64,000 bases of DNA from an uncultured SAR86 cluster bacterium. Its GTDB lineage: Bacteria; Pseudomonadota; Gammaproteobacteria; Magnimaribacterales; Magnimaribacteraceae. The translations under genes were made by a program, and so were the position numbers. Below are positions 13,748 through 29,991 of the stretch, one piece after another (within the stretch, counting starts at the first letter, position 1; the number at the start of each line of letters is the position of its first letter). The notes under the pieces were generated by a model. The model was not told the origin of the DNA, ran no database searches, and saw only the letters and a list, made by a program, of their open reading frames with translations. The stretch is from positions 1 to 64,000 of the forward strand of contig CACBBD010000005.1 in the NCBI GenBank assembly GCA_902537425.1. Reading direction: 5' to 3'.

Positions 13748-14135
13748 ATCTTGACTGTATAATGCTCTCCAAAGCGCTATTTTAAAAATCGTCCAAAAAT
13801 GGGTTACCGAATATTAACAATTGAGAGTTAGTAACAAAAGGATATTTTTAGAAAATTACTTATGCAAGCCAATCGTTTCCATATAGGTATGGTGATGGAA
13901 GAGATCAATAGAAATTCTTTTGACTCCGATTTATTAAATGAATCAAAAAAGAAAGCTAAGGGCATTGAACAGATTAGTTTTGCTTACTATATTATCCTTA
14001 GAGCTGAAAAGATTGCGTCAAAAGAGGAATTTCCTCTTAGAAAATTTTGAATTTATTGAATATATAAAATCCTTATTTCAATTAAAAAATTATAAGAATT
14101 TATATATACTCAATAGAAGTGCTTGGAGAGAATTT

Positions 14136-15740
14136 ATGAGTAATACTATTGAGATAAAAGAATTTGATGCTGTAATAATTGGAGCTGGATTTGCAGGAAT
14201 CTATCAACTTCTAAAACTTAGAAGACTCGGATTAAATGCAGTTATTTTAGAAAAGGCCGATCAGGTAGGTGGAACCTGGCACTGGAATAGATATCCTGGC
14301 GCAAGATGTGATATACCATCCCTTGAATATTCATATCAATTTGATGAAAACTTGCAACAAGAATGGAATTGGACTGAGAAGTATTCGGCACAACCGGAGA
14401 TACTAGAATATTTAAATCATGTTACGGATAGGTTTGAGCTAAGAGATGGTATTAAGTTTGAAGAAGAGGTGCAGACCGCTAAATTCAATGAAGATAATTT
14501 AAAGTGGACTGTTACAACTAGTAAAGCTAAATACCAAACAAAATTCTGTATTTTTGCTACTGGTTGTCTGTCTGTTCCTAATAAACCTAACTTTGAGGGT
14601 ATAGAAAACTTTGATGGAGAATTGCTTCAGACATCAAATTGGCCTCACGAAGAACAAGACTTTAGTGGTAAAAAGGTTGCAATTATCGGAACAGGATCTT
14701 CTGCCATACAGTCGATACCTATAATCGCAAATCAAGCTGAAGAACTATATGTTTTTCAAAGAACACCTAATTATTCAATCCCTTCTAATAACGGACCTAT
14801 GGATAAGGATATAGAGAAGGAAATTAAATCAAGATATTCAGAATTCAGAAAAGAAAATTACTCGAATGGATTTGGTATTGCAGGTATTTCAGATGAATCT
14901 TTAATTTCTGAAACTGAGCTTGAAGAGGTGCACCAACAACTTGAAGAAAATTGGCAAAGCGCAGGTCTCGGATTTTTTGGAGGATATGCGGACATCCCTA
15001 TAGATAAAGACGCGAATAAAGTAGCCGCCGATTTTGTACGAAATAAGATTAAGCAAATTGTGAAAGATCCTGACACTGCCTCTTTGCTTTGCCCTGATTA
15101 TCATATTGGTGGTAAGAGACTATGTGTAGACACAGGTTATTTTGAAACATTCAATAGAGAAAATGTTTATTTAATAGATCTCAATGCAAATCCAATAGAG
15201 AAAATCAGCTCAAATTCAATTGAAGCAGATAAAAAATATGAAATAGATACTTTGATATTAGCGACTGGCTTTGATGCCATGACGGGTGCGCTTACAAATA
15301 TTGATATTAGCGGAAGAGGAAATATCAAATTAAAAGACCAGTGGGAGCAGGGTGCCAAATCTTATTTAGGAATAGGTATCTCAAATTTTCCAAATCTATT
15401 CACAGTTACAGGTCCGGGTAGTCCGTCTGTCTTATCAAATATGATGCCTTCAATCGAGCAGCACGTTAACTGGATAACTGATTGTATAGATTGGATGATT
15501 CAAAATGATAAAGCTGTTATTGAATCTTCTGAAACAGCCGAAGAAGAATGGATGGCTTTGGTAAATGAAATAGCAGATATGACAGTATTTACGGATACTA
15601 AGTCTTGGTATAACGGATCCAACATTGAAAAAAAGGCGAAGGCATTTTTGCCTTTTATCGGAGTGCCTGTTTACACGGAAATGATCGAGGAAGTAGTCAA
15701 TGAAGGCTATAAGGGTTTTATATTTGATAGGATGAACTAA
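14136..15740 (+). CDS. Flavin-containing/Baeyer-Villiger-type monooxygenase
   Basis: Rossmann GAGFAG; GGTWHWNRYPGARCD motif; second GTGSSA Rossmann; variant BVMO fingerprint FDGELLQTSNWP. Start placed at ATG 14136, with GGAGAG upstream, rather than 13938. Confidence 0.88.
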   Translation: MSNTIEIKEFDAVIIGAGFAGIYQLLKLRRLGLNAVILEKADQVGGTWHWNRYPGARCDIPSLEYSYQFDENLQQEWNWTEKYSAQPEILEYLNHVTDRFELRDGIKFEEEVQTAKFNEDNLKWTVTTSKAKYQTKFCIFATGCLSVPNKPNFEGIENFDGELLQTSNWPHEEQDFSGKKVAIIGTGSSAIQSIPIIANQAEELYVFQRTPNYSIPSNNGPMDKDIEKEIKSRYSEFRKENYSNGFGIAGISDESLISETELEEVHQQLEENWQSAGLGFFGGYADIPIDKDANKVAADFVRNKIKQIVKDPDTASLLCPDYHIGGKRLCVDTGYFETFNRENVYLIDLNANPIEKISSNSIEADKKYEIDTLILATGFDAMTGALTNIDISGRGNIKLKDQWEQGAKSYLGIGISNFPNLFTVTGPGSPSVLSNMMPSIEQHVNWITDCIDWMIQNDKAVIESSETAEEEWMALVNEIADMTVFTDTKSWYNGSNIEKKAKAFLPFIGVPVYTEMIEEVVNEGYKGFIFDRMN

Positions 15741-15938: not shown

Positions 15939-16382
15939 TTATATCCTTGAAAGATAGTCATCTAACCTTTCTTGATTCATCAAAAAGGTTTTTTTGTAAG
16001 ACTCAGCTTTAGCTCTGATTGAGTTAATATTGGAAGAAGATTCGACTTTTATAACTCCTACCATAGCCATCATATTGTGTGGAGTGCATTGATAGACATA
16101 GACACCTTCTTCAGTCAAAGTGACTTCTATATCTTGATTCATTGCCCCTACCCAAGGCTCAGCTCCTTCTGGAATCATACCCTCTACCGAAGAAGAGTTG
16201 TGAGCTAAGTCAGTTGCGACAAATTTTACAGTGTCACCTTTATTGATGGAAAGAACTGCTGGCTCAAAAACCATCATCCCTTCCTTGCCAGCATTAAGCA
16301 TTTTCACAACATGTTCTTGTGAGAAGGCTGAGAGGGTGTATAGAGTGAGAAATAGTGTAAATGCGAGTTTTTTCATGCTCAC
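15939..16382 (-). CDS. Pseudoazurin-like blue copper protein (cupredoxin)
   Basis: Signal peptide; type-1 Cu ligands DLAHNSS ... YVYQCTPHNMMAM. Confidence 0.88.
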   Translation of the reverse strand: MSMKKLAFTLFLTLYTLSAFSQEHVVKMLNAGKEGMMVFEPAVLSINKGDTVKFVATDLAHNSSSVEGMIPEGAEPWVGAMNQDIEVTLTEEGVYVYQCTPHNMMAMVGVIKVESSSNINSIRAKAESYKKTFLMNQERLDDYLSRI

Positions 16383-18120: not shown

Positions 18121-19137
18121 ATGAATAAATATATTGCCTTGTTGATTTCATTTTTTCTTTTCGGCACTTTGCATTCAAAGGATTATGAATTTGAGAGAGG
18201 TATGGGAAATTTAATAGGCAAAGAAACTTGGTCCAGATGTTCTGAAAAGTTAGCATCCAAAGAGGCAAAAGAGTATGAGCTTTCGTATGAAAGATCAACC
18301 ACAATGCCAAAGTCTCCATTTGCAGGAGAATACGAACCTAAGTTTCTTCCCCCAGTAGGATTAGCGGGATCAAAGCAAATTTATAATATGGATGTCTTAA
18401 ATGAAAACGTTAATGATGGTAATCAAGGAACTCAGATGGATGCCTTTGGTCATTTTTCTCATACTCAAGAAAAATGGGATGGAGAGTCTGATCTAAAGGC
18501 AGAAGATGCGAAATATTTTGGAGGTTTCACTCAAAAGGAAGTTAAACCTTCACCTGATTCGCCTCTATTAAAGCTCGGAATGGAAACTGTTCCACCCATC
18601 ATTACTAGCGCGATTTTATTAGATGTAAGGAAGCATATATTTAAAGGTAAATCTATGGAAGCAGGCCAATATGTAACTGTAGAACATCTCAAAAAGACTA
18701 TTGAATTGTCTGGTTTGTCTGAGAGAGGATTAAAGCCTGGTGATGTGGTGCTTATAAACACCGGATGGAGTGATCATTATGAAGACCCCGATATATCCAA
18801 AATTTATTATTCTTATGCTCCGGGTATTTCGTACGAAACTGCCAAGTTCTTGGGAACCAAGAAAGTTGTCGCAGTTGGTTTAGATACTCCTTTTGTAGAT
18901 GCGGTGCCAAACCCTAATTCAGAGAAAATCTTTAAGATGCCTGGAGGAATGCCTGACGGATTAGGCTTTCCAGTTCATCATTACTTTCTTACTCAAGTAG
19001 GTATTTATACCTTAGAAAACTTGAAACTAAATAATTTAGCCAAAGATTCAGTTATAGAATCTTGCATTATGATTCTACCTTTACTTTCAAGAGGGAGCGC
19101 AGCATCACCAATAAGGCCTGTCGCCATAGGTGGGTAA
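18121..19137 (+). CDS. Cyclase family protein (kynurenine-formamidase-like fold), exported
   Basis: Signal peptide; QMDAFGHFSH metal-binding-type motif; GLKPGDVVLINTGWSDHY; SEKIFKMPGG. Confidence 0.8.
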   Translation: MNKYIALLISFFLFGTLHSKDYEFERGMGNLIGKETWSRCSEKLASKEAKEYELSYERSTTMPKSPFAGEYEPKFLPPVGLAGSKQIYNMDVLNENVNDGNQGTQMDAFGHFSHTQEKWDGESDLKAEDAKYFGGFTQKEVKPSPDSPLLKLGMETVPPIITSAILLDVRKHIFKGKSMEAGQYVTVEHLKKTIELSGLSERGLKPGDVVLINTGWSDHYEDPDISKIYYSYAPGISYETAKFLGTKKVVAVGLDTPFVDAVPNPNSEKIFKMPGGMPDGLGFPVHHYFLTQVGIYTLENLKLNNLAKDSVIESCIMILPLLSRGSAASPIRPVAIGG

Positions 19138-19194
19138 ATTTATCAAATGATTATTTAATGGATCAGGAGTTATAAAAAACTAGGGAGAATTTTT

Positions 19195-20013
19195 GTGAGA
19201 TTTTTAAGATTATTATTTTTTGGGGCTCTTTTAATTTTTCAATCGATACTCCTCTCTGAGATTATTCCAATTGGTCCCAATGGAAAGCCTGATTTAAATG
19301 GAGTATGGCAAGTAATGAATAGGGCTAATTTTAATTTGGAAGCTCACTCAGCTTCGGCAGCTATGCATCTTATCGAAGGACCTGTAGTTCCTATACCGCA
19401 TCCAGATATTCTTGCATTAGGGGCAGTGGGATCTGTGCCAGGTGGATTAAGCGTCATAGTTGGGAATAAAATACCTTACAAAAGAGATGCTTTGAGAAAA
19501 AGAGATGAAAATCGAAATGATTGGTTAAATAGAGATCCTGAAATCAAATGTTATTTACCTGGAGTACCCAGAGCAACTTACATGCCCTATGCCTTCCAAA
19601 TATTCCATAGTGAGGAAGCCGTCTTTTTTGCTTACGAATACGCAGGTGCTACAAGAAATATATATCTGCAAGATCCTGGAGAGCCACCAGTAGACTCTTG
19701 GATGGGACAATCTTGGGGGTATTGGGAAGAAAATACTTTTGTCATAGAAGCTACTGGGTTTAATGATCAAACCTGGTTTGATAGGTCAGGAAATTACCAT
19801 TCAGATAAACTTAAGGTTACAGAAAGATATACCCTTTTAAATGAGCATTTGATGGACTATGAAGCTATGATTGAAGATGAAGAGGTTTTTACAAGACCAT
19901 GGAAAATACAGATGAAGCTATATAAAAAAGTAGGGGATGATGCGCAATTACAACAATTTAAATGCGTTGAATTTGTTGAAGAGTTAATTTATGGAGAGTG
20001 GCGTGCAAAATAA
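19195..20013 (+). CDS. Exported conserved protein of unknown function (PDLNGVW family)
   Basis: Signal peptide then GPNGKPDLNGVWQ and WGYWEENTFVIEATGFND, shared in form with the next ORF. Confidence 0.65.
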   Translation: MRFLRLLFFGALLIFQSILLSEIIPIGPNGKPDLNGVWQVMNRANFNLEAHSASAAMHLIEGPVVPIPHPDILALGAVGSVPGGLSVIVGNKIPYKRDALRKRDENRNDWLNRDPEIKCYLPGVPRATYMPYAFQIFHSEEAVFFAYEYAGATRNIYLQDPGEPPVDSWMGQSWGYWEENTFVIEATGFNDQTWFDRSGNYHSDKLKVTERYTLLNEHLMDYEAMIEDEEVFTRPWKIQMKLYKKVGDDAQLQQFKCVEFVEELIYGEWRAK

Positions 20014-20977
20014 AATATTTATAACAATTCTATCTATCCTCTCGCTCTCAACCTTTTCTGAAGAATTTAAAGTTAAAAAAACTTGGTTTGGTGACCCTGA
20101 TCTTCAAGGAGTTTGGACCAATGCAAGTCTAACAACTTTAGAGAGACCTGATCATTTTGATGCACTTGAGATAAGCGATGAAGTAGCTGATTATGCAAAG
20201 AAAGCAAGTCAAGATTTTAACGAAATACTTGATAATCCTTACGAAGAAGGAGAAACGCCAGAATCTGGTGGGGATGTAGGTGGTTATAATGTAGCTTGGA
20301 TGGATCCTGGAAATGATTTCATCAGACTAAATGGAAAATATCGAAGTTCGATCTTAACTTATCCGGAAAATGGCAAATTACCGAGAAGACTAACTAGATG
20401 GGCAATAGAAGGCCCATCAATTTACAGAATGTTTAACAGCGCAGATCATCCAGAAGAAAGAAGCCTTGGGGAAAGATGTATTGTTGGATTTGGTTCTAGT
20501 GGAGGACCGCCCATGTTGAATGTCCTTTACAATAACCACTATCAAATTGTTCAGTCTCCTGGCTTTGTCATGATAATGGTTGAGATGAATCACGACGCTA
20601 GGATTATAAGACTTGAATCAGAGCATAATCCCGATGAGATGCGTCCTTGGCTAGGAGATTCCATAGGATGGTGGGAAGGAGATACCCTTGTTGTCAAAAC
20701 CAAGAATCATCATCCCCAACAAAAATTCAGAGCTGCTATAAGGCATCAAATCCTGATCATGGATGGCGCAGTTGTAACAGAAAGATTTACAAGGACAAGT
20801 GATAATGAAATTTTATATGAGTTTGAGGTTAACGATAAAAAAGCTTACCGAGACATTTGGAAAGGAGAGATGCCTTTAAGGGCAACCGATGCAAAGATCT
20901 ATGAATATGCTTGCCATGAAGGAAATTATGCAATGGCCAACATACTGGCTGGTGCTAGAGCGGAGGAAAGTCAATGA
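19991..20977 (+). CDS. Exported conserved protein of unknown function (PDLQGVW family paralog)
   Basis: Signal peptide; FGDPDLQGVWTNASLTTLERP and IGWWEGDTLVVKT. Confidence 0.7.
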   Translation: MESGVQNKIFITILSILSLSTFSEEFKVKKTWFGDPDLQGVWTNASLTTLERPDHFDALEISDEVADYAKKASQDFNEILDNPYEEGETPESGGDVGGYNVAWMDPGNDFIRLNGKYRSSILTYPENGKLPRRLTRWAIEGPSIYRMFNSADHPEERSLGERCIVGFGSSGGPPMLNVLYNNHYQIVQSPGFVMIMVEMNHDARIIRLESEHNPDEMRPWLGDSIGWWEGDTLVVKTKNHHPQQKFRAAIRHQILIMDGAVVTERFTRTSDNEILYEFEVNDKKAYRDIWKGEMPLRATDAKIYEYACHEGNYAMANILAGARAEESQ

Positions 20978-21411
20978 TAAACCTTATATGTAAATCAATT
21001 TTTTCAATATTTCTTGTAATATTAAGTATTAATAGTTTCTCACATCACGCTTTTACAGCTGAATTTGATGCAAATGCCCCAGTTAATCTTACTGGCGAGG
21101 TGATTAAAGTTGAATGGATTAATCCTCATGCCTGGGTTCATTTAGAAGTTGAAGAAAGCGGCAAAAAAACTACTTGGATGGTCGAGGGAGGAACTCCTAA
21201 CACTTTGATACGAAACGGCATAACGAAACAGAGCATTAAACCGGGAACGGTTATTGTGGTAAGAGGTTATCAAAGTAAAGGAAAACTTTGTCTCCCACGC
21301 TGTATAGCAAATGGAAGAGATGTAACCTTTCCAGATGGCAGAAAGGTATTTATGGGATCTTCCGGTACTGGAGCCCCTAGAGACGGAGCTGACCCTAGAG
21401 AGAGAAAATAG
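20974..21411 (+). CDS. DUF6152-like exported protein
   Basis: SHHAFTAEFDANAPVNLTGEVIKVEWINPHAWVHLEVE is characteristic of this family; translationally coupled to its neighbours. Confidence 0.75.
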   Translation: MINLICKSIFSIFLVILSINSFSHHAFTAEFDANAPVNLTGEVIKVEWINPHAWVHLEVEESGKKTTWMVEGGTPNTLIRNGITKQSIKPGTVIVVRGYQSKGKLCLPRCIANGRDVTFPDGRKVFMGSSGTGAPRDGADPRERK

Positions 21412-21851
21412 TGAATAGGCTTAGAATCGCCATTTTTTTTAATCTCACTCTTCTAATTTCTTCCTATTCATTGGCTGAAGATGACCATCATCATTCTGAT
21501 ATGCATGATGTTATGGCTCATCTTTTAACTCCAGCATCTGAAAAAATATGGAATGCTTCGGGTTCTATTATTACTAAAGATGGGGAATTAAGTCTGGCAC
21601 CAACCAATCAGGAAGAATGGAATGAGGTTATTTTTGGTGCCAAGGTGATAATGGAAAGCACTTTTATCTTAAATAGACCTGATCGTGCAAAAGGGAGAGA
21701 AGACTGGGTAAGATTTTCTGAACTTCTTGAACCAATAGGCAAAAGAGCTTTGAAAGCTGCTGAAAACAAGGATTCTGAAAAGCTTTTCGTTGTCGGCGCT
21801 GATTTATATCAAGCATGTGTCGCTTGTCATAATGTTTATATGAGAAATTAA
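21411..21851 (+). CDS. Cytochrome c'-like monohaem protein
   Basis: Signal peptide and C-terminal CVACH haem-binding motif in a helical protein (GTG start). Confidence 0.75.
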   Translation: MNRLRIAIFFNLTLLISSYSLAEDDHHHSDMHDVMAHLLTPASEKIWNASGSIITKDGELSLAPTNQEEWNEVIFGAKVIMESTFILNRPDRAKGREDWVRFSELLEPIGKRALKAAENKDSEKLFVVGADLYQACVACHNVYMRN

Positions 21852-21856
21852 ATTTC

Positions 21857-22435
21857 ATGTTTAACTTCATTGACTGGCTGGCTTCAACTTCAGGAAGTAT
21901 TGCTCTTCGTGAGTCACTCTATATGTATCCTTGGATAGAGTCTGCTCATGTTCTATTTATAACTATATTTTTTGGTACATTACTTTTTGTTGATTTACGG
22001 TTGACAGGATATGGATTCAAAAATTTATCCATCAGTCAAATGAATGCGAAAATTTTACCTTTAACACTCATTGGTTTTCTTTTCATGATTATCACAGGCC
22101 TATTGTTATTTTATGCGCTCCCTGTGAGAAATTATCAAAATTTATTTTTTAGGATAAAGTTATTTTTGATGTTGCTCGCAGGTCTCAATGCCTGGTATTT
22201 TCACAGAACTATGAATCGACAAAGCAAGGCCTGGGACAAAAACAGCTTCATTCCATTTCGAATGAAGGTTTCAGCAACAATTTCTCTGGTTCTATGGGGA
22301 CTGGTGATCTTATCTGGCAGGATGATCGCCTACAATTGGTTTGATTGCGATAAGCAACCTCAATCTGAGTTAGTCAATTTCTTAATAAGTTGTACCGTTG
22401 ATCCAGAAATTTATGAGTATTTAAATGGAATCTAA
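21857..22435 (+). CDS. 4-TM membrane protein, DUF6644-like
   Basis: Four hydrophobic helices; YPWIESAHVLFI near the N-terminus; LSGRMIAY at the end. Confidence 0.7.
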   Translation: MFNFIDWLASTSGSIALRESLYMYPWIESAHVLFITIFFGTLLFVDLRLTGYGFKNLSISQMNAKILPLTLIGFLFMIITGLLLFYALPVRNYQNLFFRIKLFLMLLAGLNAWYFHRTMNRQSKAWDKNSFIPFRMKVSATISLVLWGLVILSGRMIAYNWFDCDKQPQSELVNFLISCTVDPEIYEYLNGI

Positions 22436-22901
22436 TCAACTACTGGAAATTATCTATCTTCTTGAAGACAGCTATATTGGTGAATATGTAAGAGGTTCAT
22501 TGTGGTTATTTCCAGTAATTCAGTCTTTTCATCTTATAGGCCTGGGAATTTTAGGTGGTGCAGTGGTTATCGGAGACTTTAGACTATTGGGAATTTTAAT
22601 GAAAACTGAAACCACTAGCTATGTAATAAGAGTCACCAAGCCTTGGTTTAATTTTGGACTTTCTATTTTGATTCTCACAGGCATCCCACTTTTTTTAAGT
22701 GAGGCAGTGAAATGTTATTACAGCCGAGCATTTTGGATAAAGATCTCGTGCCTACTAATGGGAACGATATTCGTTTATTTCATAAGGAATCCAATAGTCC
22801 TTTCAAGAGAAGAAAACTTTTTCATGAAAATTTTGGGAGTTTTGTCCTTTTCAATTTGGGTTGTTACAGCTGCATCGGGACGCTGGATAGGGTTTTCCTA
22901 A
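22425..22901 (+). CDS. 4-TM membrane protein, DUF6644-like paralog
   Basis: LFPVIQSFHLIGLGILGG and AASGRWIGFS parallel the preceding ORF. Confidence 0.7.
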   Translation: MESNQLLEIIYLLEDSYIGEYVRGSLWLFPVIQSFHLIGLGILGGAVVIGDFRLLGILMKTETTSYVIRVTKPWFNFGLSILILTGIPLFLSEAVKCYYSRAFWIKISCLLMGTIFVYFIRNPIVLSREENFFMKILGVLSFSIWVVTAASGRWIGFS

Positions 22902-24700
22902 TCCAAAGAGAAAGCAAGTATTGCATTTCCGGCCATCTGCCCGTGTTGACTGTAACCACTGTTTACAAATACCCAGTCATCAACAATTACTGGTCCAGCT
23001 GAATCTATGGAACCTCCGACTGCGGGCATTCCATTTACAGTAATGAAGTCTTTAAGGGTATCGAACTCCCATAATTTAGAACCATCTTCGCTTGCATGTG
23101 CTGAAAATCTCCCATCCAATGCTCCTGCAAAAATCACATTATTTGTCATTGAAATAGCAGCTGAGAAACCTGTACTGCATTTGCCCTCTCCATGCAAAGC
23201 TTTTCGAGATTTGCAAATATCATCTAGCCGATATTCCCATAAGATATCTCCATCTTCAAAATCTAGAGCATACAGTCCTGGTTTTGCATCATTATCATAG
23301 TCTCTGTTGACTTTTCTATCCGATATAGGGACATATAAATTTTTATTGTCGGTTGTCATGCCAAAATGAACACCTCCAAGTGTGCCTCCATTTCCAACTT
23401 TACTTTTCCAAGATATCTCTCCTGTATCTATATCAAGCCTAAAAACCCAGCCTGATTTTTGACCGGCAAGAAGAATTTTTTCCCCTTCCTGATCCTTGGA
23501 TTGGATTACTGAAGCTCCAAAATCGAAATCAGGACCATTTTCTTTCGGACAGACCAATCTTTTTATACCTGGTATTTCGCAACCCATGTTGTATGCATCA
23601 CCTTTAAGTGTCTGAGTTGCCCACATTTTCTCCCCTGATTCTAGGTTCATTGAAATGATGGCATCGCTAAAATTAGACGCTGGACTTTGTAAACTTTGAC
23701 CTGTTCCGAAGAAAATTCTTTTATCTTCTTCATCAATACCGGGGGCATTCCAGACGGCTGACCCTGCTGGTGCAAACTTTTCCATTCTTGTGATTAATGT
23801 TTTTCCAAGACTTGTAGATTTCTCTTCAATCCTATGCGTCCATATTATTTCACCAGAATCAGTATCAACTGCTGCTATCCCCCCGCTTGTTTTACAGCAC
23901 TCATGTCTGGGGTCTATCGCAAGCACGGTTTCAAAAGTAGATATTGGAACTATAAGATATTTTCCCGATTGTACTGGAGAAGCTGAGGGAATATTTGATT
24001 CATAATCAACGGGAATTTTTGATGCCCAAATCAATTCACCGCTTAATAAATTTAACTTATAAACTTCAAAATCAGAATCAACTAAAAAAATTGATTCACC
24101 ATCTATTTTGTTTAAGACTGGTGCATTTCTAAGTCTAGCCTTGGAAGTGAATTTCCAGTAAGTACAACCGTTTTCTCTATTTAGTGCATGTAGAGAATCT
24201 GAATCTGATAATAAAATTACTTCTCCTATAACGATAGGTTGGGCTCTTACATCTTGAGAGCTAATACCGAAAGACCATCGTAATTTTAAACTCTTAACAT
24301 TATCTGCGTTGATATTAGAATGTAGCTGATTTCTGGTGTTGAAATTATCATAACCCCAACTTGGCCAACTTGAGCTTTGTTTAAGGTCTCTTTTCTCTAT
24401 GACATGAGGACATTTGTAATTAGACGAGCCTGTCATAGTCCCTAGGACTTCATTTTGTGCAAGATATTCTGAGATAGCCTCTTTTTCTTGTATTGAAAGG
24501 TGTGAAGCTTGCTGCTTCATTTTTCCTTTTTGAAGAACATACATTAGTTCTGACTGAGTTAAATACGTCATTGAAGATAGCGAAATTAAATTCAGTCCTT
24601 CATCTTCATGACATGAAGCACAATTTTCTTTAACCAACTTGCTTGCATCGGTAAAAGCTAATTGAGATACAAAAAAAAGTAATAAAAGGTTTCTTTTCAT
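22898..24700 (-). CDS. PQQ-dependent quinohaemoprotein dehydrogenase, polyvinyl-alcohol-dehydrogenase-like
   Basis: N-terminal cytochrome c motif CASCHEDEG followed by a PQQ-type beta-propeller (WGYDNFNTRNQ, GGIAAVDTDSGEIIWTHR, GPDFDFGASVI). Confidence 0.82.
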   Translation of the reverse strand: MKRNLLLLFFVSQLAFTDASKLVKENCASCHEDEGLNLISLSSMTYLTQSELMYVLQKGKMKQQASHLSIQEKEAISEYLAQNEVLGTMTGSSNYKCPHVIEKRDLKQSSSWPSWGYDNFNTRNQLHSNINADNVKSLKLRWSFGISSQDVRAQPIVIGEVILLSDSDSLHALNRENGCTYWKFTSKARLRNAPVLNKIDGESIFLVDSDFEVYKLNLLSGELIWASKIPVDYESNIPSASPVQSGKYLIVPISTFETVLAIDPRHECCKTSGGIAAVDTDSGEIIWTHRIEEKSTSLGKTLITRMEKFAPAGSAVWNAPGIDEEDKRIFFGTGQSLQSPASNFSDAIISMNLESGEKMWATQTLKGDAYNMGCEIPGIKRLVCPKENGPDFDFGASVIQSKDQEGEKILLAGQKSGWVFRLDIDTGEISWKSKVGNGGTLGGVHFGMTTDNKNLYVPISDRKVNRDYDNDAKPGLYALDFEDGDILWEYRLDDICKSRKALHGEGKCSTGFSAAISMTNNVIFAGALDGRFSAHASEDGSKLWEFDTLKDFITVNGMPAVGGSIDSAGPVIVDDWVFVNSGYSQHGQMAGNAILAFSLD

Positions 24701-29005: not shown

Positions 29006-29079
29006 TCCAAAATCCATCAAGTTTCCATAATTTTAATTGAAAGGTATAGTTGGAGCATGAAGATAAAAAGCCTTTAATT

Positions 29080-29991
29080 ATGACAGAAAGGATAAAAGAA
29101 GAGCATATCGAGTTATGGAGAAAAGAAGGGGCCGTTGTGGTTCCTGAATTCTTTAAAAGAAAAGAAATAGATGCTGTAGTAGAAGACTTTCAAATTATTT
29201 TTCCCGATCGACAAACGGCAGCAAGACCGATTGATAATAAAGAAAAAGGTGATGTGGGAAAAACAACACTGGAACAATTCAAAAATTTTGAAAATATACC
29301 CTTCGAATGTTCTAGTTCTTTAAATCTAATCCCTGTTCATCCAGATTTAATAGAATTTGCAAGACAAGCTTTAAAGACAGATGAAGTAAGGCTATATCAA
29401 GCCCAGGCTTGGGCAAAATTCACCGGTGAAGCAGATTTTGATCAAGCATTTCATTGCGATTTTGGAAACCATACACTGACGGTGCCTTCTCGCGATGAAT
29501 GTTTGAACTCTATTACTTTTATTATTTTCTTCAGTGATGTCACTGAAGCTCATGGACCCACACACTATGTGAATCGAACAGACAGTGATAATTGCGGTGG
29601 CGTGAAACGTTTTCTTAAAAAACGTGAAGATCATGAATATCAAAAAGAGTTAATGAAGTTTGAGCGAAGTGCAGCTGGACCAGCAGGTACTCTTTTGGCT
29701 TATGGCATTGATGTATTACATCAAGGCACGAACCTTACCGAACCAAATGGATACAGATATGCAATGACTTCTTGTTTTAAAAAAGCAGGTAATGATGCAA
29801 TTGGCTATACGGCTTGGCCATGGCATTTCAATAAACCATGGCATAAGGTTTTTGAACATGCTACACCTGAACAACTTAACTGTTTCGGAGTTCCTTTGCC
29901 CGGAGATCCCTTTTGGACGGAAGAGACAATATCTCTGGCTAAATTGAGATATCCTAAATGGGATATGTCTGATTACAAAACGAAGCAATGA
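29080..29991 (+). CDS. Phytanoyl-CoA dioxygenase (PhyH) family protein
   Basis: Fe(II)/2OG pattern with HCDFGNHTL (HxD) and distal His (VLHQGTNLTEPNGYRYAMTS). A TTG start at 29050 is also possible. Confidence 0.8.
   Translation: MTERIKEEHIELWRKEGAVVVPEFFKRKEIDAVVEDFQIIFPDRQTAARPIDNKEKGDVGKTTLEQFKNFENIPFECSSSLNLIPVHPDLIEFARQALKTDEVRLYQAQAWAKFTGEADFDQAFHCDFGNHTLTVPSRDECLNSITFIIFFSDVTEAHGPTHYVNRTDSDNCGGVKRFLKKREDHEYQKELMKFERSAAGPAGTLLAYGIDVLHQGTNLTEPNGYRYAMTSCFKKAGNDAIGYTAWPWHFNKPWHKVFEHATPEQLNCFGVPLPGDPFWTEETISLAKLRYPKWDMSDYKTKQ

Follow-up and report, generated by a model that had tools for sequence, protein, structure and literature searches.

Locus and closest described systems

The described systems closest to the locus considered here are the polyvinyl alcohol (PVA) locus of Sphingopyxis sp. 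113P3, the CopC/CopD (YcnI/YcnJ) pair, the HemJ (UPF0093) membrane proteins, cytochrome c′, and the exported DUF4198, DUF6702 and anglerase families. The locus itself comprises eight open reading frames (ORFs; A–H) at positions 18121–24700 of the window, a 64,000-nucleotide (nt) stretch of DNA from SAR86, an abundant uncultivated marine group; the metagenome-assembled genome from which it derives is 1.34 Mb in size and 74% complete. Six of these genes (B–G), together with H, recur in several distant phyla, and given this recurrence they probably constitute one undescribed extracytoplasmic machine moving electrons or metal. The features of the locus, including one gene (H) for a propeller of the pyrroloquinoline quinone (PQQ) type, are as follows.

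18121–19137, + strand: A, exported Cyclase-family protein (PF04199, E = 5e-21); lineage-specific neighbour, not core
19195–20013, + strand: B, exported PDLxGVW-family protein 1; GTG start, no Pfam or NCBIfam match
19991–20977, + strand: C, exported PDLxGVW-family protein 2; two copies in some SAR86 genera
20974–21411, + strand: D, DUF6152 protein (2e-30) with a signal peptide
21043–21048, + strand: His-His codons of D, predicted mature N-terminus; invariant in aligned members
21411–21851, + strand: E, exported class II (cytochrome c′-like) c-type cytochrome; GTG start, C-terminal CxxCH, Met35
21857–22435, + strand: F, DUF6644-type membrane protein a; His31, Lys101 and Arg155 conserved across phyla
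22425–22901, + strand: G, DUF6644 membrane protein b (6e-28); His36, Lys106 and Arg153 conserved across phyla
22898–24700, − strand: H, exported haem c and PQQ-type propeller protein (PQQ and Cytochrome_CBB3 matches), PVA-dehydrogenase-like

H aligns end to end (29% identity) with a protein encoded on plasmid NZ_CP009453 of Sphingopyxis sp. 113P3 (PQQ-binding-like in the record itself), which we take to be the PVA dehydrogenase, and the two share the same domain order, the CxxCH motif and a vicinal Cys pair; however, no DUF6152, DUF6644 or PDLxGVW gene lies within 4 kb on the plasmid. In CopC/CopD systems, as at this locus, an exported protein predicted to bear a His at its N-terminus accompanies a multi-span membrane protein, but CopC has a cupredoxin-like fold whereas D is modelled as OB-like, DUF6644 is a Pfam family of its own, and the partners here are a cytochrome and a quinohaemoprotein. 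HemJ is, like F, a short multi-span protein with a His in the first and a Lys in the third transmembrane segment, in register with those of F, although the profile comparison is not significant and the genome carries a separate HemJ gene. With cytochrome c′, E shares a C-terminal CxxCH and weak profile similarity to the structures, but only the C-terminal part aligns, and E has an invariant N-terminal Met and additional conserved Trp residues. Finally, DUF4198, DUF6702 and the anglerases are, like DUF6152, exported with a predicted N-terminal His after cleavage, but they are separate families; a 2025 survey of N-terminal-His proteins covers all three and does not name DUF6152 folds or motifs (PMC12537917).

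An earlier reading of the window from its letters alone (the sequence-only reading) had described seven close-packed + strand genes (18121–22901) converging on a − strand PQQ/haem c gene (22898–24700), and the coordinates, strands and overlaps of all eight ORFs were reproduced. Overlaps occur at B/C (23 nt), C/D (4 nt), D/E (1 nt) and F/G (11 nt), G and H overlap tail to tail by 4 nt, and the gaps at E–F and A–B are 5 nt and 57 nt, respectively. The ORFs are evidently real genes, since B–G keep their order, at about 49–100% identity, in 19 further loci from the family. As for the six signal peptides and two membrane proteins that had been proposed, a signal-peptide-like N-terminal segment is discernible by eye in A, B, C, D, E and H, of which a 19-residue hydropathy cut-off picks out B, D, E and H only, and F and G each span the membrane several times (3 and 4 segments detected, respectively). 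One refinement concerns the families: F and G are paralogues by profile alignment (probability 98.7), and B and C, which belong to no Pfam family, are homologous and thus paralogues of a second family. Terminator-like matches across the region showed no excess over chance.

Conserved core and distribution across phyla

The six-gene arrangement B-C-D-E-F-G (19195–22901) is syntenic at each of the 20 DUF6152 loci found in the SAR86 family, namely the window and 19 DUF6152-bearing relatives drawn from that family of genomes; some of these loci carry an extra C copy, and one truncated contig starts inside C. The conserved core is thus six genes: two encoding PDLxGVW proteins, one DUF6152, one a cytochrome c′-like protein, and two DUF6644. 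Cyclase A, counted as a cluster member by the sequence-only reading, was found at the locus solely in the window and three other very close genomes, and therefore falls outside the conserved set. This restriction also makes a cyclase-led catabolic pathway, with A as its essential enzyme, very improbable, despite the exported appearance of A and its position 57 nt upstream of B. The three other families of the order that were sampled yielded no DUF6152, a statement of absence weakened, like any such claim here, by genome incompleteness. Separately, a second C copy is present in several SAR86 genera (six loci), and because the copies form separate clades, the duplication looks older than those genera.

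Beyond the family, a scan of named genomes with a G profile returned 80 loci, 62 of them outside SAR86, with many contigs ending within the region. As the sampling outside SAR86 began from DUF6644, the following counts describe DUF6644 neighbourhoods and not the DUF6152 or PDLxGVW genes as a whole. DUF6152 lay within 5 kb of DUF6644 at 49/62 loci, cytochrome E at 52/62 and a PDLxGVW gene at 47/62, with all three together, in rearranged orders, at 41 of the 62. Two convergent blocks (B-C-D and E-F-G) are frequent outside SAR86, and the commonest arrangement in the Gemmatimonadota has E-F-G converging on D-C-B. Module sets also occur in Acidobacteriota, Myxococcota (one locus without B), OM182 and Pseudomonadales; D and B accompany DUF6644 pairs in Sinorhizobium, Novosphingobium and Sphingobium, and in Azospirillum there is a D-DUF6644 pair only. 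When 28 module genomes were scanned in full, every one had two or more DUF6644 genes, and 27 had 1–4 DUF6152 copies; from these copy numbers we estimate that chance would bring the families within 5 kb of each other in roughly 1% of cases, far less often than observed.

The presence of the same set in several phyla, rearranged, means that the linkage is not one lineage's synteny, and the co-occurrence elsewhere that the sequence-only reading had named as its check was accordingly borne out for B, C, D, E, F and G. That unrelated genes were packed together by chance during streamlining might be supposed from the small size of SAR86 genomes, but the set also occurs, in rearranged orders, in large genomes of several phyla; we reject coincidental packing on this conserved co-occurrence and regard it as barely credible.

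In a tree of C, all SAR86 sequences fall on a single branch (support 100/98) whose nearest neighbour is a Myxococcota sequence, not other Gammaproteobacteria. This fits separate acquisition, with long branches leaving the exact sister unsure. A scan of viral contigs for D and a plasmid search for C each gave no match. Many DUF6152 and PDLxGVW genes sit away from DUF6644 neighbourhoods, and the 4.7 Mb genome of Acidobacteria bacterium NC_groundwater_289 displays an extreme expansion, with 68 DUF6152 matches.

The predicted quinohaemoprotein partner

H adjoins the core only in the window's genus, with unlinked orthologues in other genera. Orthologues at ≥45% identity were present in 20/21 module-bearing SAR86-family genomes compared to 3/14 module-lacking ones (Fisher p = 9e-6, uncorrected for kinship among related and often incomplete genomes). 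Homologues at 33–38% identity adjoin B in Gemmatimonadota and G in a Pseudomonadales genome, and PQQ-type proteins are the top neighbour family of the module in other phyla (20/260 flanking ORFs). H hence belongs with the core B–G as a co-inherited partner.

The N-terminal haem c of H, followed by a PQQ-type propeller, and its end-to-end homology with the Sphingopyxis protein place it among polyvinyl-alcohol dehydrogenase-like quinohaemoproteins; PQQ binding and alcohol oxidation by H are putative. A methanol/ethanol-type PQQ alcohol dehydrogenase (TIGR03075) was considered and rejected, with H scoring 96 bits against a cut-off of 480. In a departure from the Sphingopyxis system, neither PqqC nor PqqE was found in 35 SAR86-family genomes, and PqqC exceeded its cut-off in just one of 24 other module genomes, a strong match indicating that the PqqC search works. 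PQQ use by H is consequently not assured; if H does use PQQ, most carriers probably rely on an outside source. Exogenous PQQ is required by some prokaryotes (PMC4133262). A literature search combining SAR86 and quinoprotein returned no papers.

Candidate metal site in D

D matched DUF6152 (PF19649) at 104.9 bits, against a gathering cut-off of 27. Its mature form is predicted to start at His24-His25, and Asn50-Pro51-His52 (NPH) follows; neither motif varies among 49 aligned, diverse DUF6152 members. The conserved domain opens with His-His directly after the signal peptide. Among 92 distinct sequences, 91 have A, S or G at position −1 and virtually every one has a small or aliphatic residue at −3, without comparable constraint at −2 and −4. 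The His-His and NPH motifs together make a candidate metal site, and the arrangement of an N-terminal His after cleavage with a second conserved His corresponds to that of a histidine brace, as a prediction from the primary sequence. The AlphaFold monomer model of D is an OB-like barrel (mean predicted local distance difference test score, pLDDT, 83) with best matches to PriB and tRNA-synthetase domains at template-modelling scores of about 0.5; residues 1–3 fall below pLDDT 50 and are unreliable. A sequence search of the PDB gave no credible relatives for B, C, D or G, and a literature search found no paper mentioning DUF6152 or DUF6644.

These residues bear most directly on the main rival to a redox function, that is, metal acquisition or handling of the CopC/CopD kind. 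Here, DUF6152 would chelate copper (or nickel) through its N-terminal His and the NPH His, a DUF6644 membrane partner would take up, export or reduce the metal, and E and H would be redox clients or helpers. The two motifs resemble N-terminal-His copper sites as defined in PMC10952591. The minimal two-gene D-DUF6644 pairs of Azospirillum, weak CopD similarity in 3/38 F proteins, and HupE/UreJ_2 genes neighbouring some loci point the same way. However, the modelled OB-like fold of D, with the caveat on its first three residues, differs from that of CopC, up to 68 DUF6152 copies per genome ill suit a simple homeostasis gene, and the co-inheritance with H and PDLxGVW would be left unexplained. 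On balance, we consider metal handling of this kind unlikely.

The membrane pair, the cytochrome and the PDLxGVW proteins

G matched DUF6644 (PF20349) at 98.3 bits, above the gathering cut-off of 27, and F fell just under it at 25.6 bits, with 37/38 F orthologues matching at E ≤ 0.01. Across phyla, each protein has one His (H31 in F, H36 in G) and one Lys (K101, K106) conserved at 100%, and a Gly-Arg near the end. Two assignments were rejected: F scored 14.3 bits against 32.1 as CopD (PF05425; best orthologue E = 0.00043) and 19.5 bits against 34.2 as HemJ (PF03653), with hhalign probabilities below 2% for F/G as HemJ using both shallow and deeper alignments.

Likeness to HemJ nevertheless underlies another alternative, a system for tetrapyrroles or other hydrophobic ligands in which the barrels of B and C would bind the ligand and F/G would oxidise it in a HemJ-like manner. 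F matches UPF0093/HemJ at E = 0.0013 (DUF2214 matches too), its His and Lys are in HemJ register, and the C-terminal domain of C, as modelled, is a weakly calycin-like barrel with weak resemblance to fatty-acid/retinoid-binding barrels. Given that the HemJ profile comparison was not significant for F or G, and that a true HemJ gene lies elsewhere in the same genome, we view this system as improbable.

The E protein of the window is a weak match to Cytochrom_C_2 (PF01322, cytochrome c′; 14.3 bits against 26.5, E = 0.08), with its CxxCH at the C-terminus; 15 of 32 E orthologues match at E ≤ 0.01, and the E profile matches cytochrome c′ structures. Both the CxxCH and a Met (Met35) are 100% conserved. 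This invariant Met may serve as the other ligand of the haem, in which case E would carry electrons and not bind gas.

A proposed extracytoplasmic redox module

We favour, at a probability of roughly 40%, the reading that B–G and H form one extracytoplasmic redox module for oxidising electron transfer, on the basis of two haem c motifs (E and H) in a conserved, co-inherited set of exported and membrane proteins. H would oxidise a hydroxylated substrate with PQQ taken up from outside; the substrate is perhaps hydrophobic and would be handled by B and C. From the haem of H, electrons would reach cytochrome E and next the F/G pair, probably a haem b carrier, and so enter the quinone pool. D would be a metal-binding protein, probably for copper, working with F/G and either supplying or using the metal.

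Several points weigh against this module. The smallest D-DUF6644 pairs lack E and H, and D with F/G may thus have begun in a role other than oxidising alcohols; the haem b family HemJ shows no significant similarity to F/G; the fold matches of C are weak; PqqC and PqqE were not found, as noted above; and the electron flow, the haem b in F/G and the substrate are proposals. The single extracytoplasmic pathway that the sequence-only reading had suggested, in which a substrate would be oxidised and its electrons passed via cytochrome to the membrane, fares unevenly: co-inheritance of H, even where unlinked, speaks for it, and the PqqC/PqqE result against it. The broader proposal is that of an undescribed but widespread module for respiration or metal redox chemistry. 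That DUF6152 as a new N-terminal-His metalloprotein family, the paralogous His/Lys membrane pair of DUF6644, the divergent class II cytochrome and the secreted PDLxGVW proteins would act in one complex coupling a PVA-dehydrogenase-like quinohaemoprotein to the membrane, is possible, if doubtful. The redox and metal readings can be combined, for example as a redox unit in the membrane that depends on metal and has been reused by a number of periplasmic oxidoreductases.

Neighbouring genes and significance

Beside the module, an exported plastocyanin/azurin-like copper protein is encoded at 15939–16382 on the − strand, a position kept in the window's genus; it might conceivably accept electrons from the module. 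At 13938–15740 lies a gene for a flavin monooxygenase-like protein, with likeness to the pentalenolactone D synthase group below the cut-off and an N-terminal extension of about 70 residues ahead of the FAD motif, possibly due to a wrong start. Downstream of the module, the product of 29050–29991 appears by eye to be phytanoyl-CoA dioxygenase-like.

The analysis joins two DUF families and a third family that Pfam lacks in one testable unit, common to ocean Gammaproteobacteria, Acidobacteriota and Gemmatimonadota. It singles out the mature H1/H2 and NPH residues of DUF6152 and the His and Lys of DUF6644, and predicts a quinohaemoprotein partner. It also raises the possibility that SAR86 may depend on PQQ from other organisms.

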